Below are positions 32,334 to 41,850 of a stretch of DNA of 64,000 nucleotides, one piece after another. A model generated the notes under the pieces. The model made no database searches and was not told the DNA's origin. It was given only the letters and a program-made list of their open reading frames with translations. Origin of the DNA: Candidatus Saccharimonadota bacterium. Lineage in GTDB: Bacteria; Patescibacteriota; Saccharimonadia; Saccharimonadales; Saccharimonadaceae. The stretch covers positions 1 to 64,000 of the forward strand of contig JAPUEE010000011.1 in the NCBI GenBank assembly GCA_027492735.1, read 5' to 3'. A program made the translations under genes and the position numbers. Numbering within the stretch: the stretch's first letter is position 1; every line of letters starts with the position of its first letter.

Positions 32334-33017
32334 ATGATATTACTAGATAGGGTAACCAAAACATATCATCGCGGTATCAGGCCGGCACTCGATAAAGTGT
32401 CGTTACATGTGGCGCCGCGTGAGTTTGCGATTATTGTCGGTGCTTCGGGCGCTGGTAAATCAACATTGCTAAAACTATTAACCCGCGAGGAAAAACCAGA
32501 TTCTGGCAAGATCGTTGTTGGCGGCATTGATTACGATACGTTAGACGATCGTGACGTTCCGCTGCTCCGCCGACGTATCGGCGTAGTGTTTCAGGACTTT
32601 AAATTATTACCTAATCGTACGGTGTTTGAAAACGTAGCACTCAGTCTCGAAATCTCTGGCCATACTAATAACGAAATTAAAACCAACGTGCCAAAGATCC
32701 TAGAGCTTGTTGGTTTGTATGGCAAACAAAAGAACTTTCCTAGAGAATTATCGGGTGGTGAGCGCCAACGTGTCGCCATCGCTAGGGCTATGGTGCGTCA
32801 GCCAAAGATTCTCATTGCAGATGAGCCGACAGGTAACCTCGATCCTAAAAACAGCTGGGAAATCGTTCGTTTGCTCGCCAAAATTAATAAATTTGGCACA
32901 ACTGTTCTATTGATTACCCATAGTACGGAAATTGTTAACCGTCTCAATACCCGCGTTATTACGTTAGATGAGGGCAAAGTAGCTAGCGATGTAGCTCATG
33001 GAGGATATCGTCAATGA
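32334..33017 (+). CDS. ftsE: cell-division ABC ATPase FtsE
   Basis: 227 residues. Walker A GASGAGKST, Q-loop VFQDFKLLPNRTVFENVA, signature ELSGGERQRVAIARAM, Walker B ILIADEPTGNLD and the H-loop THS are all intact. FtsE-FtsX transmits ATP hydrolysis across the membrane to activate a septal hydrolase. TATAAT (32317-32322) ends 11 nt before the ATG. It overlaps ftsX by 4 bp. Confidence 0.96.
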   Translation: MILLDRVTKTYHRGIRPALDKVSLHVAPREFAIIVGASGAGKSTLLKLLTREEKPDSGKIVVGGIDYDTLDDRDVPLLRRRIGVVFQDFKLLPNRTVFENVALSLEISGHTNNEIKTNVPKILELVGLYGKQKNFPRELSGGERQRVAIARAMVRQPKILIADEPTGNLDPKNSWEIVRLLAKINKFGTTVLLITHSTEIVNRLNTRVITLDEGKVASDVAHGGYRQ

Positions 33018-34033
33018 GTGAGTCAAAGATGCCTAACAAATCAACTACCACGAAAAGTTCAGCACCAAAGGTTCGACGTTTGCAATCGAGGCGGCAACAT
33101 CGTTTGGTTACTAATGTGCGTGTATTTCGCTATGGTGTCCGTAACTTTACACGTAATTCCTGGCTGACTGTTGCTGCTACGGCAGTCATGACTATTACTT
33201 TGTTAATCATGTTCGTTACTATTGCCGCTAGCCAAATGCTGAATAGTACCGTAGTGAGTTTGCGAGAGAAGATTGATATCTCAATCTACCTCGATCCATC
33301 GGTGAGCGACGATACCCTGCGCAATTTAAAGGGCAAGATGCAACTGGTTGAAAACGTCCGTACTGTTTCTATCAGTAATAGCAAACAGCAATACCAGGAT
33401 TACGTACAGCAATATCCAGACAAGTTAGAAACGCTCGCTACGTTGGCCGAGCAAGGCATAGATCCATCAGAGAAGTTTCCGGCGGTAATGAATGTAAAAG
33501 TCAATGATCTCAGTAACCTAACGCCCATTAAAAAAGTAGTCGGAGAAGACCCGCAGTTTAAACAATGGCTCTATTCAAAACGTGCACCGTCTTATGCCGG
33601 GGAACAGCAGGACACGATTAATCGAATCGCTAGTTGGGCCTCGTTTGCAAAACAACTCGGCTTGATACTGGGTTCGGTCTTTCTCGTTATATCAGTCCTG
33701 GTGATTTTCAATACGATTCGTATGGCAATATTTAGTCGCCGCGATGAGATTAGTATGATGCGAGCAGTTGGCGCTGATCGACACTTTATTCGTGGACCGT
33801 TTCTCATTGAGGCGGAAATGTATGGAATATTAGCAGCCATTGTCGCTACAGTTATCGGGTACTTCTTGTTCATCTGGGTGACGCCTGGTCTAGAAGCCTA
33901 TGGTATTGCGACTGCCGAAATTCGCGACATTTTATCGAACTGGATGATAGCTATTTTTGCCGCCATGATAGCGGTTGGTCTATTGATTGGCTATGTATCG
34001 GCTCGTCTGGCAGTACGACGCTATTTGAAATAG
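33014..34033 (+). CDS. ftsX: cell-division membrane protein FtsX
   Basis: 339 residues: basic cytoplasmic N-terminus, TM1 (SWLTVAATAVMTITLLIMFVTI with flanks), a large extracellular domain (EKIDISIYLDPSVSDDTL, EKFPAVMNVKV) and three C-terminal helices containing the FtsX permease motif (RRDEISMMRAVGADRHFIRGPFLIEA in parts). The external domain contacts the hydrolase encoded next. ATGA overlap with ftsE. Confidence 0.95.
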   Translation: MSESKMPNKSTTTKSSAPKVRRLQSRRQHRLVTNVRVFRYGVRNFTRNSWLTVAATAVMTITLLIMFVTIAASQMLNSTVVSLREKIDISIYLDPSVSDDTLRNLKGKMQLVENVRTVSISNSKQQYQDYVQQYPDKLETLATLAEQGIDPSEKFPAVMNVKVNDLSNLTPIKKVVGEDPQFKQWLYSKRAPSYAGEQQDTINRIASWASFAKQLGLILGSVFLVISVLVIFNTIRMAIFSRRDEISMMRAVGADRHFIRGPFLIEAEMYGILAAIVATVIGYFLFIWVTPGLEAYGIATAEIRDILSNWMIAIFAAMIAVGLLIGYVSARLAVRRYLK

Positions 34034-34061
34034 TTTTCCACAGAAATTACCGTAACCACGT

Positions 34062-34091
34062 TTGACAAACATGAGCACTTTAGTGTACAAT
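34062..34091 (+). promoter_or_regulatory. promoter of the CHAP hydrolase gene
   Basis: TTGACA (34062-34067) and TACAAT (34086-34091), spacer 18 bp, so the hydrolase can be made independently of ftsEX. AGAAGGAGG then precedes the GTG start. Confidence 0.65.
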
Positions 34092-34136
34092 TGATGCTAA
34101 GGCTCCTCGCCACCACTGAAAGAAGGAGGGTTACCA

Positions 34137-35309
34137 GTGCGATACAGAAAACCAGTTGCAAACAAGCAACGCAATCAACAACTCAAAACAAGCACCAAGC
34201 GTTCGGCAATTATTCTTGTTGCAGTAGCAGTGCTCGTTGGCGTTATTGCACCATCTTTTTCTCCTGATACACCAGTGGCGGCTCTCGATAATAGCGCGAA
34301 AATCAAAGCTCTCGAATCTCAGATTAGCACTTATAATGAACGGGCGAGGGAATTATCGGCACAATCTGACTCGTTGACCAAAGCTATCGACGTTCTAAAA
34401 AATGAGCAAGCTCAATTACAAGCTGAAATTGATCTCAATAATGCCAAGGCTGTAGATCTAAAGGCGAAGATCGCTGATAACGAGGCAAAGATCAAAGTTC
34501 GTGGTAATGATCTCAGTGAGATTATGGCGGAAATGTATCTAGATAATAAAGTTACTCCACTAGAGATGCTTGCAAGTAGCAATAATCTCAGTGACTACGT
34601 CGATAAACAGTCACAGCAGGCGACAGTCCAGGATCAGTTAAAAGATGCAATCGAGGAAATCAAAGAGCTCAAAGCTCAGCTCGAAAGCCAGAAAAAAGAC
34701 GTTGATGCAATTCTCGTTGACCAAAAAGCACGAAATGCACAGTTGGCTAGTAAACAGGGTGAACAGCAGTCATTGCTAAATAAAACGCAAGGTCAAGAGG
34801 CTGCCTATGCTAAATTAACCGCTGATAATCGCGACAAAATTCGTCAGTTACAGGCCGAGCAGGCTCGTGCTAACCAAACTAGTACTGGTGGCGGTAAAGT
34901 TGTTGCGGGCGATCCGAACCATGGCGGCTACCCAGCATACCTGAACAATGCTGCCAAAGACGCTCTCGTAGATCCATGGGGAATGTATAATCGCGAGTGT
35001 GTGAGTTACGCTGCCTGGAAAGTATACCAAACGTATGGCAATATGCCGTACTGGGGCGGTCGTGGCAATGCTAATCAGTGGGATGATAACGCACGTGCAG
35101 CAGGTATTCCAACTGGCTATACACCAAAGGTCAAATCTGTCGCTGTTTGGCATATCGGCTACTATGGTCACGTGGCTTGGGTAGAGTCTGTGAACAGTGA
35201 CGGTACATTCAATGTTTCAGAATACAACCGTGGTGGCGATGGTCAGTACCACGAGCGCGTCAATATTAGTACGAGCGGTGTCGTCTTTATCTACTTTGGC
35301 GAACGATAG
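34137..35309 (+). CDS. PcsB-like coiled-coil CHAP peptidoglycan hydrolase
   Basis: 390 residues from a GTG with a full AGGAGG upstream. A signal/anchor helix (AIILVAVAVLVGVIAPSF) is followed by a long coiled coil (about 50-240, e.g. KALESQISTYNERARELSAQ) and a C-terminal CHAP domain with Cys in YNRECVSYAAW and His in YYGHVAWVE. In streptococci and actinobacteria FtsEX activates exactly this type of coiled-coil hydrolase (PcsB, RipC) at the septum, and the gene directly follows ftsX. Confidence 0.93.
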   Translation: MRYRKPVANKQRNQQLKTSTKRSAIILVAVAVLVGVIAPSFSPDTPVAALDNSAKIKALESQISTYNERARELSAQSDSLTKAIDVLKNEQAQLQAEIDLNNAKAVDLKAKIADNEAKIKVRGNDLSEIMAEMYLDNKVTPLEMLASSNNLSDYVDKQSQQATVQDQLKDAIEEIKELKAQLESQKKDVDAILVDQKARNAQLASKQGEQQSLLNKTQGQEAAYAKLTADNRDKIRQLQAEQARANQTSTGGGKVVAGDPNHGGYPAYLNNAAKDALVDPWGMYNRECVSYAAWKVYQTYGNMPYWGGRGNANQWDDNARAAGIPTGYTPKVKSVAVWHIGYYGHVAWVESVNSDGTFNVSEYNRGGDGQYHERVNISTSGVVFIYFGER

Positions 35310-35355
35310 AATAGCAGGGTAGTTCCGCGGTATCGTTTATGCTAAAATAGAGGCA

Positions 35356-36603
35356 ATGAAAGTGAGTTTAAATCCTATGCAACCAGGTAGATCTACATTG
35401 CCAACTTCTTCTAATAGAAATACAGGAAAGAATCGAAAAACAGTCACTATTAGTATCATGTCGGTGATAGTGACAAGCCTGATCGTCGGTACGATTGGCT
35501 TTGCTATTGGCACCAGGTACCAGACCATTTTAGCTAGAACGAATGGCAGTTTGGACTATAGCAAGCTCAACGAGATCTATGGCGAGCTATCTCAGAATTT
35601 CGATGGCAAACTGGATAATGACAAACTAGTCCAAGGCGCAGCTGCGGGTATGGTGAATGCTGCAGGTGACCCGTATACAACGTTCTTTACAGCAGCCGAG
35701 GCCAAGGAATTCAATAGTGATCTATCCGGCACATTCGAAGGTGTTGGTATCGAACTAGGGCAGAACAGTGACAACCAGCTAGAGGTAGTATCACCGATCG
35801 ACGGTAGTCCTGCCAAGGCAGCCGGCATTAGGGCTCGTGATGTTATCGCTGGCGTTGACGATGTTAGTTCGGTGAGCTGGACTCCGGAAAAGGCAGTGAC
35901 AAAGATTCGCGGTAAAGCCGGTACGGTAGTTAAACTTACAGTGCTCCGAGACGGGGAGACAAAAGAGTTCAAAGTAACTCGTTCCAAAATCACCGTTCCT
36001 AGTGTTGAGCACGATATAAAAGACAATATTGGCTATCTCCGTATTTCGCGTTTTGGTGATGATACGGCTGGTTTAGCGGCCAAAGCGACTGACGCATTCC
36101 ACTCGGCTAATGTTCGCGGTGTTATTCTCGATTTGCGTGGTAATGGTGGCGGATATGTCGATGCTGCAAAAGCAGTGGCGAGTCTATGGCTACCATCAGG
36201 CCAGGTGATTGTGCAGGAACGTCGTGGTAACCAAGTGGTAGGAACAGAAACGTCTTCCGGAGAGGCAACACTCCAAGGCATTGCTACTGTTGTCCTCATT
36301 GATGGCGGTTCAGCCAGTGCTAGCGAAATAGTCGCGGGTGCACTAAAAGACAACGAGGCCGCAACGTTGGTCGGTACGACATCATATGGTAAAGGTAGCG
36401 TTCAGAAATTAGTGCCATTATCGAGCGGCGCTGAGCTCAAAGTCACGATCGCTAAATGGTATACGCCAAAGGGTCAAAATATCAATGGTAACGGTATTAA
36501 ACCAGATATTGAGGTAAAAATGACCTCAGATGAGTATAATGCCGGTAATGACACTCAACGCATCAAAGCTACCGAGATTTTGAATAAGAGAGAGACCCTC
36601 TGA
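35356..36603 (+). CDS. ctpA: S41-family C-terminal processing peptidase
   Basis: 415 residues: an N-terminal membrane anchor (ISIMSVIVTSLIVGTIGFAI), a PDZ domain (VSPIDGSPAKAAGIRARDVIAGVDD), then the protease core with the catalytic Ser in DGGSASASEIVAGALKD and Lys in TSYGKGSVQKL. CTPs trim or degrade envelope proteins and often control peptidoglycan hydrolases, fitting the position after the FtsEX-CHAP module. TAAAAT is 9 nt before the ATG. Confidence 0.95.
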   Translation: MKVSLNPMQPGRSTLPTSSNRNTGKNRKTVTISIMSVIVTSLIVGTIGFAIGTRYQTILARTNGSLDYSKLNEIYGELSQNFDGKLDNDKLVQGAAAGMVNAAGDPYTTFFTAAEAKEFNSDLSGTFEGVGIELGQNSDNQLEVVSPIDGSPAKAAGIRARDVIAGVDDVSSVSWTPEKAVTKIRGKAGTVVKLTVLRDGETKEFKVTRSKITVPSVEHDIKDNIGYLRISRFGDDTAGLAAKATDAFHSANVRGVILDLRGNGGGYVDAAKAVASLWLPSGQVIVQERRGNQVVGTETSSGEATLQGIATVVLIDGGSASASEIVAGALKDNEAATLVGTTSYGKGSVQKLVPLSSGAELKVTIAKWYTPKGQNINGNGIKPDIEVKMTSDEYNAGNDTQRIKATEILNKRETL

Positions 36604-36613
36604 TAATTACGAA

Positions 36614-36702
36614 CCCCGGGTCCTGCCGCTCGGTCCGCCCCTAAAATTTTTTATCTCTGGTAAAAACATTTTAGGGGCTGCCCCGCCTCGCGTCACCCGG
36701 GG
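36614..36702. repeat. GC-rich palindromic repeat, copy 2 with internal hairpin
   Basis: Outer arms CCCCGGGT (36614-36621) and ACCCGGGG (36695-36702) enclose an 11-bp perfect stem GCCCCTAAAAT (36637-36647) / ATTTTAGGGGC (36668-36678). CTGCCCCGCCTCGCGTC (36678-36694) is the exact reverse complement of 469-485 after parA, and GGGTCCTGCC (36618-36627) of 481-490. The middle hairpin is absent in copy 1. Possible REP/MITE-like element that also ends the ctpA transcript. Confidence 0.65.
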
Positions 36703-36734
36703 TAGGTGTGAGCAAGCAATAGTTTCACAAAAAT

Positions 36735-36764
36735 TTGACTCAATGGTTTCGTTTGGTGTACACT
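36735..36764 (+). promoter_or_regulatory. promoter of the leader-peptide transcript
   Basis: TTGACT (36735-36740) and TACACT (36759-36764) with an 18-bp spacer, followed by GAGGAAAG at the expected distance before the leader ATG at 36784. Confidence 0.65.
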
Positions 36765-36783
36765 AGTATTCGAGGAAAGTACT

Positions 36784-36882
36784 ATGACGAAGTTTGCAGA
36801 CAGCCAGACCCCAGTCACGCACCATAACATGGTGTGCTTGCTAGGTTTGATTGTACCGCGTCCTTCGGCTGTTGCTTTCTAG
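36784..36882 (+). CDS. 32-codon leader ORF
   Basis: A short ORF with its own promoter and a strong Shine-Dalgarno (GAGGAAAG, about 6 nt spacing), ending in TAG. The peptide begins MTKFADSQTPVTHH and ends IVPRPSAVAF; there is no run of a single amino acid that would point to tRNA-based attenuation. Its last codons overlap the 5' arm of a hairpin (36862-36871) that competes with a downstream terminator, as expected of a regulatory leader peptide. Too short for product assignment. Confidence 0.5.
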   Translation: MTKFADSQTPVTHHNMVCLLGLIVPRPSAVAF

Positions 36883-36937
36883 TACCACATACAATTTATA
36901 AACGAAAAGCAGCCGAAGGGAAACCTCCGGCGTTTTT
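36862..36937 (+). promoter_or_regulatory. attenuator with competing hairpins
   Basis: CCTTCGGCTG (36862-36871) can pair perfectly with CAGCCGAAGG (36910-36919). The latter also forms the 5' arm of a terminator, GCCGAAGG (36912-36919), GAAA loop, CCTCCGGC (36924-36931), with one A/C mismatch, followed by T5 (36933-36937). Only one can form. A ribosome at the leader stop codon (36880) would cover the upstream arm and favour termination. Confidence 0.6.
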
Positions 36938-36971
36938 GTTTATAAAAAACCAAAGAGAAGGGAAAAGTACG

Positions 36972-37229
36972 ATGACCGTTCGAAAGAGGGTCGAGGCATT
37001 CCTCGATCAGCGCCTATGCGGCATGGACTTCGTTTCATGGCGAAATGCCATGCGAGCGATGTCTGAGTTCGGCATTCGCAAGCGCGACGTAGGTCGCGCC
37101 ATCCGGAAAGGGTGGCTAAAGGTCTACTGTGGGTTTGATACCCACAATGGACACGGCGGCGGATCGACGGGGTGGGTGCTCCTTGCAAAGGGGCCAAACC
37201 TCTCCACCGGGGAGCCGAGCCTTACCTAG
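36972..37229 (+). CDS. 85-residue basic protein behind the attenuator
   Basis: Starts at an ATG with AGAAGGG upstream. Basic N-terminal two-thirds (VRKRVEAFLDQRL, FGIRKRDVGRAIRKGWLKV) with a Trp and helix-turn-helix-like spacing, then a Gly/His-rich NGHGGGSTGWVLLAKGPN. Third codon positions are mostly G or C, unlike most neighbours, which hints at transfer. I recognise no family. Expression should depend on read-through of the terminator at 36912-36937. Confidence 0.55.
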   Translation: MTVRKRVEAFLDQRLCGMDFVSWRNAMRAMSEFGIRKRDVGRAIRKGWLKVYCGFDTHNGHGGGSTGWVLLAKGPNLSTGEPSLT

Positions 37230-37453
37230 GCTGAGCTCTCAGTAGGAGGCATGGTCACATCTCCTCACGAGGGAGAATCTGGCCAGAGGGGATGGCGGCA
37301 TACGGCCACAAGCTGAAAACCGCCACCCCGGGCCTCGTCCACTTTTTCCTCTCTCTGACAACATAGTGTCGTCCTCGCAGGCTGTTTTTAGCCTCGGACG
37401 ACACTTCGCCTCTCTACTTGCACAAAGTTAGCGAAACCTTTATACTGATAGGC
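37230..37453 (+). other. GC-rich structured intergenic segment
   Basis: No ORF of note. It contains short inverted repeats such as GAGGCATGG/CATCTCCTC-type pairs and ends in a large hairpin described separately. It may be the 3' UTR of the 85-residue gene or a separate small RNA. The -10 box of the response regulator (TATACT, 37441-37446) lies at its end. Confidence 0.4.
37365..37405 (+). terminator. large two-part hairpin
   Basis: AGTGTCGTCC (37365-37374) pairs with GGACGACACT (37396-37405), and inside it AGGCT (37379-37383) pairs with AGCCT (37390-37394) over a GTTTTT loop. It likely ends the attenuated transcript, although the U-run is in the loop rather than after the stem. Confidence 0.6.
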
Positions 37454-37843
37454 ATGGAACATGGAACAAAGCACAAGATTTTATTGGTCGAAGACGATGA
37501 AGTACTGGCTACTGTCTATAAACAGCGACTGGAACTCGAGGGTTTCGAAGTTCAGCGTGTTGATAACGGCGAGGATGCTTTGCAGACTGCACTAGAGTTC
37601 CAACCCGAGCTTATTCTATTAGATGTTATGATGCCAAAACTAAACGGTTTCGATGTGCTCGATATCTTGCGAAACACCCCAGCGACCCACAATATTCATA
37701 TTATTATGCTAACAGCGCTCAGTCAGCCAAAAGATGCCGAACGCGCCAAAGAACTTGGTGCTGACGATTTCCTCGTTAAATCTCAAGTTGTCATTAGCGA
37801 TGTGGTGGATCGTATCAAACACCAACTCAGTATCAAAGACTAA
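37454..37843 (+). CDS. single-domain response regulator (CheY-like receiver)
   Basis: 129 residues, receiver domain only. The acidic pair is in LLVEDDEVLA, the phosphoacceptor Asp in LILLDVMMPKLNGFD, the Thr in IIMLTALSQ, and the Lys in DDFLVKSQV. Start chosen at ATG 37454, 7 nt after TATACT; the in-frame ATG at 37418 precedes that box. No output domain and no adjacent kinase; the next gene is an FHA protein. Confidence 0.92.
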   Translation: MEHGTKHKILLVEDDEVLATVYKQRLELEGFEVQRVDNGEDALQTALEFQPELILLDVMMPKLNGFDVLDILRNTPATHNIHIIMLTALSQPKDAERAKELGADDFLVKSQVVISDVVDRIKHQLSIKD

Positions 37844-37896
37844 TAACAAGACCCGCATTGCCCAGCGGCTTCGAAGGAAATGCAAGCAATAGTTCA

Positions 37897-37925
37897 TTGA
37901 CTTTTTATCGTTTCTGTGCTACAAT
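37897..37925 (+). promoter_or_regulatory. promoter of the FHA-protein gene
   Basis: TTGACT (37897-37902) and TACAAT (37920-37925) with a 17-bp spacer. Confidence 0.6.
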
Positions 37926-37953
37926 TGTAGCTAGAAAACAATAACATAAACAT

Positions 37954-39657
37954 ATGACTACCACTGATCCATCGTATAATCACAAGAACGACCAGCCTGT
38001 ATATCCGGAGATTCCATTAGAGTTTGCTCACAAACTGGAAAAGAATCAGCCTCAGAGGCTAGCAGTTGGTCCAGAAATACCTAATTATCCCAAACCGCTG
38101 TTGTTGATACAGGTTGAAGCGGTAAAAGACGCTGCGCCGGTGAATCTAGCAGTGTTTGATGTGAGAGGTCTTGCTTTCGCACCAAGTGATTTTGCAATTT
38201 TTAACCTGGACTCGCCAAAAAACTACAAGGTGTCATTTGGCACTGGAGACAGTGATCGATTTACGCTCGGTCGATCTTCGACAGATGCTAACGAAGAACA
38301 GCGAAAGGCTATGCAAGAACTTGGGCTAGGAGATCATCTCAATGTATCTCGAGACCATCTCATTATTTCTAGTCAAAAGATTGATAATCGAACAGACCTC
38401 TATTTCGAGGATGTCTCGAGTAATGGCACTGTTGTGAGTCGAGATCCAGAACTGTTGATTGCCGCAATGGAGAGTGCCAAGATGCCGACTGCTGACCAAA
38501 TCGCCAAAAATATGCGGACTGAATACAAAGAGACGACGGTGAACGAGGTGATCGCCGAACCCGAACCCCTCTCTGCAATTGGTGATACGGTGGACCGCTC
38601 AAAACTCGAGCAGCCAGCAGAGTCGTTTGAACATCGAAAAACTATCAAGACTCAGCCCGAATGGATTAAAACAGCCGAGGAAAAGATTGGTTGGATCCTG
38701 AATAGTCCTGGTGATACTAGTATGGCACGTGACTTTTTGCGTACCCTCGGTGCTACGCCAGAGGAAATTCGCGCCAAACTTGATCCTAATACCGGAGATC
38801 CGGAGGCAAGAGTGGGACTTCAGAATATTATTCGACGTACTATCGATGAGTTGGGTGATCAGAATCTCTTGCCCGAACGCGTACAGGCTAACCTCCTGGA
38901 TCCTTATGGTCAGGGCGGCAAGGCAGATGACTTCGGCTTTAGCTTCGACTCAAAGCAAAAATATGAATCGAGAGATTATTCGGCCATGCTCGCAGTAGCG
39001 ATGCTCGATGGCCGGTTCAATACCGAGCGATCAGATAGAGAAGAGCAGTCTATCGGTGCAGGTCATCACCGCACGGCGGCTAAAATGGCTCTAAAACAAA
39101 TCGGCGCTGACGAGAGCTATGCTAACGCTCCTGATACCGCCAACGAAGAGCTTTCGGCTGAGCAGGATAGCATTCGTGAATTACACCGCACATTAACGGA
39201 ATACATCAATAACAGCGGTATAACCGAAGAGATCAAAGGAATTATGACTATTGCTCGCGATCTCGAAAGTATCGTTAGTCCCGATAGGATCGATGTAGAT
39301 ACTCTTCGTGATCGCGCGGTATTTTTCGTAGACAAGATCGAACAACTCACCAATCGTCTCCATGAACTGCAGACTATACCGGGCAAAGTTGAGCAGGAAA
39401 TAGATCTACGCCAGTCTAGCAAGGATGAGCAGCGAACCTTTGAAAACATAGGGCACGAACTGAGAGCGATAACTTCGAGATCTGATAGTATTTCTCATCA
39501 GGATCACCTCGTGCGATTATTGTCGAGTCTCAAATATACTGACGACGGTATGCATATATTACAGATCAAGGGACTCATCCGTCGTGGCCAGCTCAATGAA
39601 ATCGCTCGAATACTCCATGATATAGGTAACAAGGTAGAGACGCTGGCCAATAGATAA
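37954..39657 (+). CDS. large FHA-domain protein
   Basis: 567 residues. About residues 85-160 form a forkhead-associated domain: FTLGRSSTD, LNVSRDHLIIS and YFEDVSSNGTVVS match the G-R-S, S-x-x-H and S-S-N-G-T core that binds phosphothreonine. The remaining 400 residues are charged and helical with no recognised domain. It suggests Ser/Thr phosphorylation signalling, yet no Hanks-type kinase or phosphatase lies in the window. Closed by a strong bidirectional terminator. Confidence 0.85.
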   Translation: MTTTDPSYNHKNDQPVYPEIPLEFAHKLEKNQPQRLAVGPEIPNYPKPLLLIQVEAVKDAAPVNLAVFDVRGLAFAPSDFAIFNLDSPKNYKVSFGTGDSDRFTLGRSSTDANEEQRKAMQELGLGDHLNVSRDHLIISSQKIDNRTDLYFEDVSSNGTVVSRDPELLIAAMESAKMPTADQIAKNMRTEYKETTVNEVIAEPEPLSAIGDTVDRSKLEQPAESFEHRKTIKTQPEWIKTAEEKIGWILNSPGDTSMARDFLRTLGATPEEIRAKLDPNTGDPEARVGLQNIIRRTIDELGDQNLLPERVQANLLDPYGQGGKADDFGFSFDSKQKYESRDYSAMLAVAMLDGRFNTERSDREEQSIGAGHHRTAAKMALKQIGADESYANAPDTANEELSAEQDSIRELHRTLTEYINNSGITEEIKGIMTIARDLESIVSPDRIDVDTLRDRAVFFVDKIEQLTNRLHELQTIPGKVEQEIDLRQSSKDEQRTFENIGHELRAITSRSDSISHQDHLVRLLSSLKYTDDGMHILQIKGLIRRGQLNEIARILHDIGNKVETLANR

Positions 39658-39676
39658 TTCACTGCACATTTAAACT

Positions 39677-39705
39677 AAAATCTCCCTGAGAAATAGGGAG
39701 ATTTT
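39677..39705. terminator. bidirectional terminator
   Basis: AAAATCTCCCT (39677-39687) pairs with AGGGAGATTTT (39695-39705) over a 7-nt loop, with A-run and T-run on opposite sides. It serves the FHA gene on the plus strand and rpmA on the minus strand. Confidence 0.85.
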
Positions 39706-39721
39706 TTAGAAAATGATTCTA

Positions 39722-39994
39722 TTACTCAACGCACACTTGGGTGCGCCAGGTAGTTTTACCGGTGAAATTCTTTATCTTGCGGCGAACAAACTTGACGACG
39801 CCATCTTTGTCGGCGTGAATAGTAAAGTTGCGGCTGACGTAAGTGCCAGGACCAGCAATTTTTGTAGCGCCAACTTGACGTACGATAACTTGACCAGCGT
39901 TAACTTTCTGACCACCGAAAACCTTGACGCCGAGGCGCTGACCGGCGTTGTTATGGATGTTTTTGGACGAACCGCCCGCTTTAACATGAGACAT
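39722..39994 (-). CDS. rpmA: ribosomal protein bL27
   Basis: 90 residues: SHVKAGGSSKN, QRLGVKVFGGQKVNAGQVIVRQ and HADKDGVVKFVRRK are the bL27 core; the usual N-terminus AHKKGGGS is recognisable. The N-terminal tail reaches the peptidyl-transferase centre. A C-terminal basic extension (KNFTGKTTWR) is longer than in E. coli. On the minus strand, TTGCAC (40054-40049) and TACAAT (40031-40026) form its promoter; rplU is not adjacent. Confidence 0.93.
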   Translation of the reverse strand: MSHVKAGGSSKNIHNNAGQRLGVKVFGGQKVNAGQVIVRQVGATKIAGPGTYVSRNFTIHADKDGVVKFVRRKIKNFTGKTTWRTQVCVE

Positions 39995-40058
39995 ACTTTA
40001 AAACACTCCTTCGTTATTTTCGTCCATTGTACACTAAAAAGACTTTTTGTGCAAGCGA

Positions 40059-40087
40059 TTGACATGTAGTAAAATCTAATGTAATAA
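40059..40087 (+). promoter_or_regulatory. promoter of the HAD-like gene
   Basis: TTGACA (40059-40064) and TAATAA (40082-40087), 17-bp spacer, divergent from and interleaved with the rpmA promoter. Confidence 0.6.
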
Positions 40088-40110
40088 TATGCTCTAATAG
40101 TGGAGAAAGG

Positions 40111-40755
40111 ATGAGAATGGCAAGAGGGGAACGAGAAACCTGGGCGATAGATATTGACGATGTGTGTTTAGATTATGGTGGTGGGTTTACTCGCTTTAAT
40201 AATCGGGTTGGTTGGACATCTGGCATGAGGCCGCATGACTACAGCGAGCAATGGGGGCAGTTATGGGGGGGGGTCGGCTCGGAAGAAATAGCTAGACGGA
40301 CGACTTCTATGAATCGTGGCATGAATCCATTTTTGCGGCCGGTCAGAGATTCACAGCTAGCTCTCGCGGCTCTCGCGAAGCATCACGATTTAATAATACT
40401 AACCTCTAGGCCGAGGGATATTCATGAAATCACAAAATCGACTATAGACAGACATTTTCCTGATATATTTCGAGATATACGCTATCTCGAAGGTGGCTGG
40501 GGTGATCGAGGGGCTAACGAAGCAGTCACCAAAGGCGAAACTGCCATAGAGATCGGTGCTTCGACATTAGTTGATGATCAACCGCGCCATGCCATTGGCA
40601 TGGCTATGGCTGGTGGTGTTGGTCTATTGTTTGGCGGTAGTCAGTTAGCGGCCACTACTGTCTCGGACGAGGCCGGAGTAATAAAGGTGGCCACGTGGAG
40701 AGAGGTTCTAGATCATGCTGGAATCGAACCTGACTCAGCGCTTCCTCAGGACTAA
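40111..40755 (+). CDS. HAD-superfamily 5'-nucleotidase-like protein with G9 tract
   Basis: 214 residues. AIDIDDVCLDY is HAD motif I (D-x-D), LIILTSRPRD motif II, and GASTLVDDQPRHA motif IV, in the arrangement of NT5C-like (deoxy)ribonucleotidases. ATG 40117 has better spacing to GAGAAAGG than 40111. Nine consecutive G (40265-40273) encode Trp-Gly-Gly-Val about residue 52; a one-base slip would truncate the protein. The 3' end overlaps the convergent methylase by 21 bp. Confidence 0.7.
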   Translation: MRMARGERETWAIDIDDVCLDYGGGFTRFNNRVGWTSGMRPHDYSEQWGQLWGGVGSEEIARRTTSMNRGMNPFLRPVRDSQLALAALAKHHDLIILTSRPRDIHEITKSTIDRHFPDIFRDIRYLEGGWGDRGANEAVTKGETAIEIGASTLVDDQPRHAIGMAMAGGVGLLFGGSQLAATTVSDEAGVIKVATWREVLDHAGIEPDSALPQD

Positions 40756-41850
40756 CAGCTCGCGGCCGACAACTTGGTCTTCGCGATGATAGACGAGGGG
40801 AATTGATTTGTCTGAATAATATAGTTGTTCAAATCCTATCTCTGATAAATCACGAATAAGTGGGAGATGATGAACGTTTCCGTGGACAAACCAGCAGGGC
40901 ACTGCGATGGTCATGCCAGTGTCGGACGAGACCTGCGTGCGGAGATTTGCTAGGAATTTTGACAGAATGATATTACAAGTATTCATTACTTCATTCAGAA
41001 CTGCTGGTGGTGGAACAGCGGTGAAAGCGCGACCAAGATAGGTTTCGGTAGCGATGATATCTATCGGTGCTTGCCAGCGGTGCGATGTGGCGTCGCCGAC
41101 TTCTAATTTGGATGCAAAATCTATATGATGAGTTGATTTTAGCCACTTCAGATTGGCTTCTGAGTATTCGATCATGCGTGGCTCTAGATCAGTACCATAG
41201 ACTGACAATCCCATGAGGGCTGCCTCCTGGAGAACGACGCCCGTACCACAGAAAGGGTCGAGGAGCATGGGTGTAGTGGCTTTGTCTAGCTTGGCGACGC
41301 CAGCGGCCAGGTTGACCATGGTTTGAGCTAGTTTTGGCGGCAGCATCCCAACGCGGGCGTCGCGCTTTGGCCGCGATCGGTCTCGAAAGGTATAGGCAGG
41401 TATGTCTTGGACGAATATGGTTTTTGCGAGCAACTCGCGACCGTTTATGTGGGCAAAAATAAATTCAATTTTGTTTGGCTTGGTTAGTTTGTTATGGAAA
41501 ACGGTAGCGCTCGATAGAGCAGCTTCGGTGCTGGGGACGAGCCGGACCGACCCACGACGTTTTTTAACATCGAGCCCAAAACGAAACAGCTCACGCGGCG
41601 AGAGTTTTGTGCCATAGGTGGACAGTCCGAGCGTCACTTTACCCTCGACCGGAAGATGCTCGGCAATATTTTTCCAGGTATTATCAACCACGGTCGCTAC
41701 TTTGACGACAGAACCGAGACGGCTGAAATCGACGTCTACTGCTGTCTCGAGCAGAGCGATAGGGCCATAGAGTTGGACCTCTGATCCAAACACTGCTCGC
41801 AGCTCAGCAAAGCCAATTTCTGGCTGACGGCCTAAAACGAATAATAACAT
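40735..41850 (-). CDS. Trm11/UPF0020-like RNA guanine methyltransferase
   Basis: 371 residues. The N-terminus LLFVLGRQPEIGFAELRAVFG and following region resemble the THUMP-containing part of Trm11/TrmG10 proteins, and the Rossmann domain has LLDPFCGTGVVLQEAALMG then VYGTDLEPRM. The motif IV position, normally D/N-P-P-Y-G, reads IATETYLGRA, so the catalytic P-P-Y is missing. It may still bind SAM and RNA. Homologues N2-methylate guanosine 10 of tRNA. Confidence 0.75.
   Translation of the reverse strand: MLLFVLGRQPEIGFAELRAVFGSEVQLYGPIALLETAVDVDFSRLGSVVKVATVVDNTWKNIAEHLPVEGKVTLGLSTYGTKLSPRELFRFGLDVKKRRGSVRLVPSTEAALSSATVFHNKLTKPNKIEFIFAHINGRELLAKTIFVQDIPAYTFRDRSRPKRDARVGMLPPKLAQTMVNLAAGVAKLDKATTPMLLDPFCGTGVVLQEAALMGLSVYGTDLEPRMIEYSEANLKWLKSTHHIDFASKLEVGDATSHRWQAPIDIIATETYLGRAFTAVPPPAVLNEVMNTCNIILSKFLANLRTQVSSDTGMTIAVPCWFVHGNVHHLPLIRDLSEIGFEQLYYSDKSIPLVYHREDQVVGRELLVLRKR

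Follow-up and report, generated by a model that had tools for sequence, protein, structure and literature searches.

A candidate ribosome-mediated transcription attenuator on a putatively acquired islet between ctpA and a response-regulator gene in a member of the Saccharibacteria

Saccharibacteria are minute epibiotic bacteria whose genomes are reduced. In one such genome (817 kb, 26 contigs), we analyzed a window of 64,000 nucleotides in which an 853-bp gap separates ctpA (S41 peptidase, ending at 36603) from a response-regulator gene beginning at 37457. The gap holds a promoter-like sequence, a short leader open reading frame (ORF), a hairpin followed by T residues and an 85-residue frame (ORF85). 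Where does this DNA come from, and could it place ORF85 under the control of a switch that senses translation, as a sequence-only reading of the locus had proposed?

Comparison with relatives points to an insertion. The response-regulator protein is 84%, 80%, and 81% identical to those of the best-matching Candidatus Saccharibacteria loci, and its gene is directly adjoined by ctpA in five of eight relatives' stretches (G020, G006, G003, G013, and G015). A CTP-synthase-like ORF (named by eye) separates the two genes in G037, the start of G042 is similar, and G021 contains no clear response-regulator match. The genes are also adjacent in 8/10 saccharibacterial or patescibacterial GTDB loci, with ctpA placed further upstream in the two exceptions (L104 and L106); GTDB locus L099 is apparently the same contig as G020:C32. 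The intervening islet (~810 bp, 36604–37414, + strand, ends judged by eye) reaches a G+C content of 0.61, compared with 0.40–0.53 in its surroundings, and likeness to the relatives' regulator promoter sequence resumes near 37415 (by eye). Islet DNA downstream of a palindrome at its left end had no match in other genomes among 295 family and 392 order genomes, islet DNA outside the palindrome had no relative among phages and plasmids, and searches of IMG/VR with four exact islet hairpin patterns found none. Short DNA matches at E ≤ 1 in the 295 family genomes, the best of them at the terminator (E 5.5e-4), were taken as chance, as were seven sub-threshold Rfam matches in the islet; the sole Rfam match over the window was a tRNA. 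The islet thus looks like a small, lineage-specific insert of acquired DNA. Its 3′ end carries a hairpin with a perfect 10-bp outer stem (37365–37405, + strand) that is not followed by a T-run.

The left-end palindrome (36617–36699, strand not assigned) is a copy of a dispersed ~83-bp element recognized from matches within the family. A second copy lies in the same genome (G000:C5:93305-93387), a further one at L079 1732-1814, and the islet query matched the element in 45/295 family genomes, its own included (E ≤ 0.001, two candidates scored per genome, some matches partial). Of 19 copies checked, four interrupt an open frame that continues for 60 codons or more in both directions. The G020 copy is in frame within a 449-aa methyltransferase-like ORF, the counterpart of which in the window is shorter (371 aa, 40735–41850). 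We take the element to resemble Rickettsia palindromic elements; a literature search on palindromic elements returned no paper, which does not prove absence in print.

Downstream of the palindrome, the islet presents the elements from which a regulated transcript could start. A sigma-70-like promoter (TTGACT-18-TACACT, 36735–36764, + strand) would initiate transcription near 36771. This promoter had been called good; it is present, with 9/12 consensus matches, and is acceptable rather than exceptional, since 3 kb of sequence holds 10 sites of this quality, itself included, against 3.4 expected from shuffles. The Shine–Dalgarno (SD) sequence that follows (GAGG, 36772–36775, + strand, 8 nt before the ATG), described earlier as strong, is likewise present and is better termed decent: its duplex with the anti-SD has an energy of −5.9 kcal/mol, 17/56 host genes are at or below −6, and 8% of random sites are equally good. 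The 32-codon leader ORF taken from the ORF list was borne out (36784–36882, + strand, ATG at 36784, stop codon ending at 36882); its codon usage has a z of 1.88, and the search for a conserved leader peptide found no relative of the leader or of ORF85. A 13-nt block, GCAAGCAATAGTT, lies upstream of the promoter (36712–36724, + strand) and has two copies in the 817-kb genome by exact-copy count (36712–36724 and 37882–37894), both closely followed by a TTGACT promoter (at 36735 and 37897, respectively). The start sites of the leader and of ORF85 (36776–36788 and 36964–36976) have AAAGTAC-N-ATGAC in common, 12/13 positions being identical, as if one initiation region had been copied from the other.

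Does the leader end in a genuine switch? Its last codons overlap one arm of an antiterminator, and the partner arm (36910–36919) also belongs to a GNRA-capped terminator ending in T5, as the sequence-only reading had stated on both counts. Complementarity and folding place the antiterminator at 36862–36919 (+ strand, 36862–36878 with 36905–36919); the core arms 36862–36871 and 36910–36919 are 100% complementary over 10 nt, and the pairing extends to ~14 bp with a 3-nt bulge. The terminator (36910–36937, + strand) folds as a hairpin with a GAAA loop (36910–36932) followed by T5 (36933–36937), with a local minimum free energy of −14.8 kcal/mol (z −3.2), and a longer A/U stem extends from 36896 to 36945. 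In RNA free of ribosomes a third element forms, a rod (arm 1:2, 36774–36880, + strand) with predicted pairs 36774–36781:36873–36880 and 36788–36792:36863–36867, and favors the terminator; the free fold of 36771–36945 reaches −59.5 kcal/mol (z −4.56), with 0/200 shuffles as good.

Antiterminator and terminator, having one arm in common, are mutually exclusive, and their combination is beyond chance. Among 3000 dinucleotide shuffles of 36771–36945, 12 contained any terminator and none a terminator with an antiterminator of at least 10 bp. Across both strands of the window, the 36910–36937 hairpin is the only one of seven terminator calls with an antiterminator of at least 9 bp, and in 169 other loci (1.41 Mb, both strands counted) 0/111 terminators had one of at least 10 bp. 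These results bear on a simpler explanation, in which the terminator merely ends a short transcript or shields the islet from upstream read-through, and a leader-sized ORF occurs by chance with no switch. Consistent with such ordinary pieces, the hairpin is flanked by A- and T-tracts, as a bidirectional terminator would be, and a simple terminator scanner called it on the − strand only, where the pair that forms an internal A.C mismatch in the + strand stem (36916/36927) is G.T. SD-like sites are also common (8–10% of random sites). An upstream sequence that mimics the terminator arm perfectly over 10 nt, combined with the three-state behavior described below, is not expected from this explanation, which we judge distinctly unlikely.

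The alternative folds respond to the position of a ribosome on the leader. In an in silico model, a ribosome was represented by 29 unpaired nucleotides centered on every leader codon in turn, and we determined which hairpin held for RNA ends from 36931 to 36945. With the RNA ending at 36937, the predicted probability of the terminator was 0.998 without a ribosome and 1.00 with codons 23–33 in the P site, whereas P-site codons 1–13 gave antiterminator probabilities of 0.72–0.99; codons 14–22 gave mixed outcomes. When the RNA was extended to 36945, the longer A/U stem made the terminator win in every ribosome state, so the model requires that the decision be taken at the T-tract, where intrinsic termination is normally decided. 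The proposed architecture of translation-dependent attenuation is thereby supported computationally, with ribosome position deciding the fold, and the leader ORF and its alternative folds would give a three-state switch of the trp/erm type.

The mechanism that we favor, with moderate confidence, is a ribosome-mediated transcription attenuator of this kind on the putatively acquired ~0.8-kb islet. RNA would start near 36771 and a ribosome would load on the 32-codon leader. A ribosome at the leader end would hide 36862–36878, allowing the terminator at 36910–36937 to form and keeping the downstream gene off; an untranslated leader would fold on itself through arm 1:2, and the terminator would form as well. 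A ribosome held within approximately the first 13 codons, by an inhibitor of elongation or initiation or by a shortage of charged tRNA, would leave 36862–36878 free to pair with 36905–36919, whereupon RNA polymerase would read through and ORF85 would be transcribed. The antitermination window is broad (codons 1–13, start codon included) and in the model suits any early block of translation. The sequence-only reading, seeing no tRNA-type codon run in the leader, had favored stalling by a nascent peptide or a drug; this preference gained no support, given the breadth of the window and a search that yielded no relative in which a conserved leader peptide could be seen. The only candidate control codons in the leader are His13-His14 (CAC-CAT; 6.8 and 14.1 per thousand), which form no clear run and stand at the border of the antitermination window, and ORF85 is not recognizably biosynthetic. 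When the A site is occupied by the first His codon (P-site codon 12), the antiterminator probability is 0.94; it is 0.85 for the second (P-site codon 13) and drops to 0.18 at P-site codon 14. A tRNA-type signal through this pair, noticed post hoc, is a weak suggestion to which we give little weight.

Known systems offer partial parallels. In the Escherichia coli trp leader, pairings 1:2, 2:3, and 3:4 compete, and termination ensues whether the leader is left untranslated or is translated in full. The islet resembles trp-type leaders in its three competing pairings and in the predicted termination both without and with full translation; it differs in having a 32-codon leader, no clear control-codon run, and a gene that is not recognizably biosynthetic. 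The leaders of erm genes are upstream-ORF (uORF) attenuators of the same kind as those of ARE ABC-F genes, and WhiB proteins, encoded downstream of another such leader, have four cysteines. Literature sources for the comparisons included PMC12421871 and PMC12121999. In the ARE ABC-F leaders (lmrC, vgaA, msrD, vmlR, and are5sc), a ribosome held in the uORF swaps antiterminator and terminator (PMC12421871). The islet has in common with the ARE ABC-F and erm leaders the uORF and this exchange with a ribosome held in it; unlike them, it encodes no ABC-F protein or methyltransferase, and its leader contains a His-His pair. As in the actinobacterial whiB7/wblC leader, an upstream ORF and a premature terminator precede a small regulator gene; in contrast, ORF85 has two Cys, a predicted winged helix and no Pfam WhiB match, and belongs to a different phylum. 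The unusually structured mRNA is a feature of the islet, and mRNA structure forms no part of the likeness drawn to whiB7/wblC. According to Naville and Gautheret 2010 (PMC2965389), a terminator from the 3′ end of an insertion sequence or prophage may undergo exaptation in front of a cellular gene. Compared with the mobile attenuators treated there, the islet is alike in that inserted DNA would have carried the attenuator to its site, and unlike in that the insert holds promoter, leader, and gene together. Literature searches on attenuation, leader peptides, or riboswitches in Saccharibacteria and on terminators or attenuators in Patescibacteria returned nothing on point, which does not prove absence in print.

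What would the switch control? ORF85 (36972–37229, + strand, from the ORF list) encodes a protein of 14 Lys/Arg, seven Asp/Glu, and two Cys by sequence count. The characterization of its product as a basic protein of 85 residues without known kin stands insofar as no sequence relative was found, and structure prediction makes it more specific, pointing to a winged helix. Single-sequence AlphaFold gave a pLDDT of 76.2 and a pTM of 0.64, with elements in the order H-E-H-H-E-E, which, wing strands included, is that of a winged helix; as a control, an antisense ORF of equal length gave 49.1 and 0.22. Foldseek returned no match to the model with E ≤ 0.001. Many of the best VIA structural matches were winged-helix regulators (MarR-, PadR-, and MexR-type, Z 4.9–5.9), although these matches are tied and weak, some are unrelated, and a Z under 8 may mean merely a common arrangement; ORF85 was therefore placed in no particular family. 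ORF85 is probably a small winged-helix DNA-binding protein, which would have targets on DNA.

No sequence relative of ORF85 was found in 61 relatives, 394 family genomes, and 379 phylum genomes, by peptide patterns in IMG/VR and GTDB, by tblastn against phage and plasmid DNA, or among PDB sequences, and nothing exceeded the cut-offs in Pfam, PHROGs, NCBIfam, and PADLOC (a PHROG match had E 0.012 and a Pfam match E 0.078). Five of nine weak family-genome matches, read in their surrounding frames, showed nothing protein-like resembling ORF85; the − strand match among them, L094, was possibly read on the wrong strand. A match in the phylum genomes (G820, E 7.7e-4) was rejected as lying within a LysM/peptidase-like frame (named by eye). 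Weak matches near ctpA occurred in G037, G042, and G003, that of G037 falling within its CTP-synthase-like ORF (named by eye). Codon usage of ORF85 is atypical and weakly host-like (z 2.13; 172 host 85-codon pieces: 1% quantile 1.96, median 3.64), and its reading frame scores best of six.

Folding extends well beyond the leader. In sliding 200-nt windows across 36800–37399, + strand z values range from −3.4 to −5.9 and are more negative than those of the − strand, and consecutive islet segments have z values of −4.56, −4.44, and −5.30. Outside the islet (33000–41199), most + strand z values, including those of neighboring host genes, lie between −2 and +2; the lowest is −3.48 (39600–39799), and the palindrome has −2.67 and −2.65. 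ORF85 RNA folds better than 300/300 synonymous-codon shuffles (z −3.85), whereas 26 control pieces taken from eight host genes have z values no lower than −1.29 and no higher than 1.53; an antisense control frame gave −2.63, as expected where a duplex contains hairpins. The ~650-nt RNA, its coding part included, is therefore far more structured than neighboring genes and synonymous recodings. The segment 39600–39799 (z −3.48 on the + and −2.45 on the − strand) covers the end of a 567-aa ORF (37954–39657), before an L27-like ORF (named by eye). This 567-aa ORF adjoins the response regulator. It matched nothing in Pfam at 0.01, had no clear counterpart in any of the nine stretches compared, and may represent another lineage-specific insertion at the regulator.

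The same structure may act on ORF85 translation. In the predicted fold, a pyrimidine-rich 3′ strand (37336–37351, + strand) pairs with the SD region of ORF85 (36957–36963, + strand) and so closes the ORF85 domain over it: SD-to-tail pairing reaches 13.2 expected pairs against a mean of 6.8 in shuffled tails (0/200 as high), and the unpaired probability of 36957–36963 is 0.66 in RNA 36946–37330 and 0.10 in RNA 36946–37420. ORF85 translation is thus probably limited a second time, by the finished mRNA closing over its own SD. The predicted burial of the SD by the 3′ end, together with the order promoter, RNA, terminator, and ORF, would also suit a toxin–antitoxin-like arrangement, in which a structured RNA and an attenuating terminator precede a small protein (type III) or an mRNA closed from 5′ to 3′ end is inert (type I). 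No tandem repeats, which type III calls for, were found in the RNA before the terminator, and ORF85 has no toxin or defense family match, is not membrane-like in sequence, and resembles a winged helix in its predicted fold; we regard such an arrangement as very improbable.

High folding and SD burial together imply either an mRNA under strong structural selection or an islet that is primarily a structured RNA. The second option is the main rival to the attenuator, with which, as an account of the 5′ part, it is partly compatible: the islet could be one large structured RNA (~650 nt) made up of two domains, a rod plus hairpin on the 5′ side and a multibranched one on the 3′ side (36955–37351) that a long-range helix closes. 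The 85-aa frame would then either overlap this RNA, making it bifunctional, or be accidental. This rival draws on the + strand z values, the synonymous-shuffle result, and the SD-to-tail pairing; ORF85 may indeed be no ordinary gene, given its atypical codon usage and RNA structure beyond codon needs. The confident and sensible winged-helix order of ORF85, absent from the antisense control, argues against it, as do the lack of an Rfam family match and the oddity of an intrinsic terminator in the middle of a constitutive RNA, and a single sequence offers no covariation. We treat this rival as a tentative alternative of appreciable though minor probability. A combined form, in which a single acquired RNA is gene and structure at once, with a 5′ ribosome-sensing switch and a ~650-nt end-to-end-closed multibranched fold locking the start of the winged-helix ORF, seems to us rather unlikely.

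The attenuator is favored by the exclusive arms, the three-state footprints, the leader fold (z −4.56), the winged-helix prediction, and two SD–ATG starts in similar context; against it stand the A.C mismatch, the terminator's win past 36945, the mixed outcomes at codons 14–22, the lack of relatives found, the atypical codon usage and excess RNA structure of ORF85, and the weak structural matches. The mechanism itself is well known; what would be new is its placement on an acquired islet before an orphan winged helix, with a self-closed structured mRNA. Attenuation joined to an mRNA structured well beyond its protein's needs is an uncommon combination, and it poses the general question of selection for RNA structure within coding sequences. 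If an acquired regulator gene does carry a ribosome-sensing attenuator, Saccharibacteria would be seen to take in and retain genes under signal control, and this reading would supply a concrete signal, translation stress.
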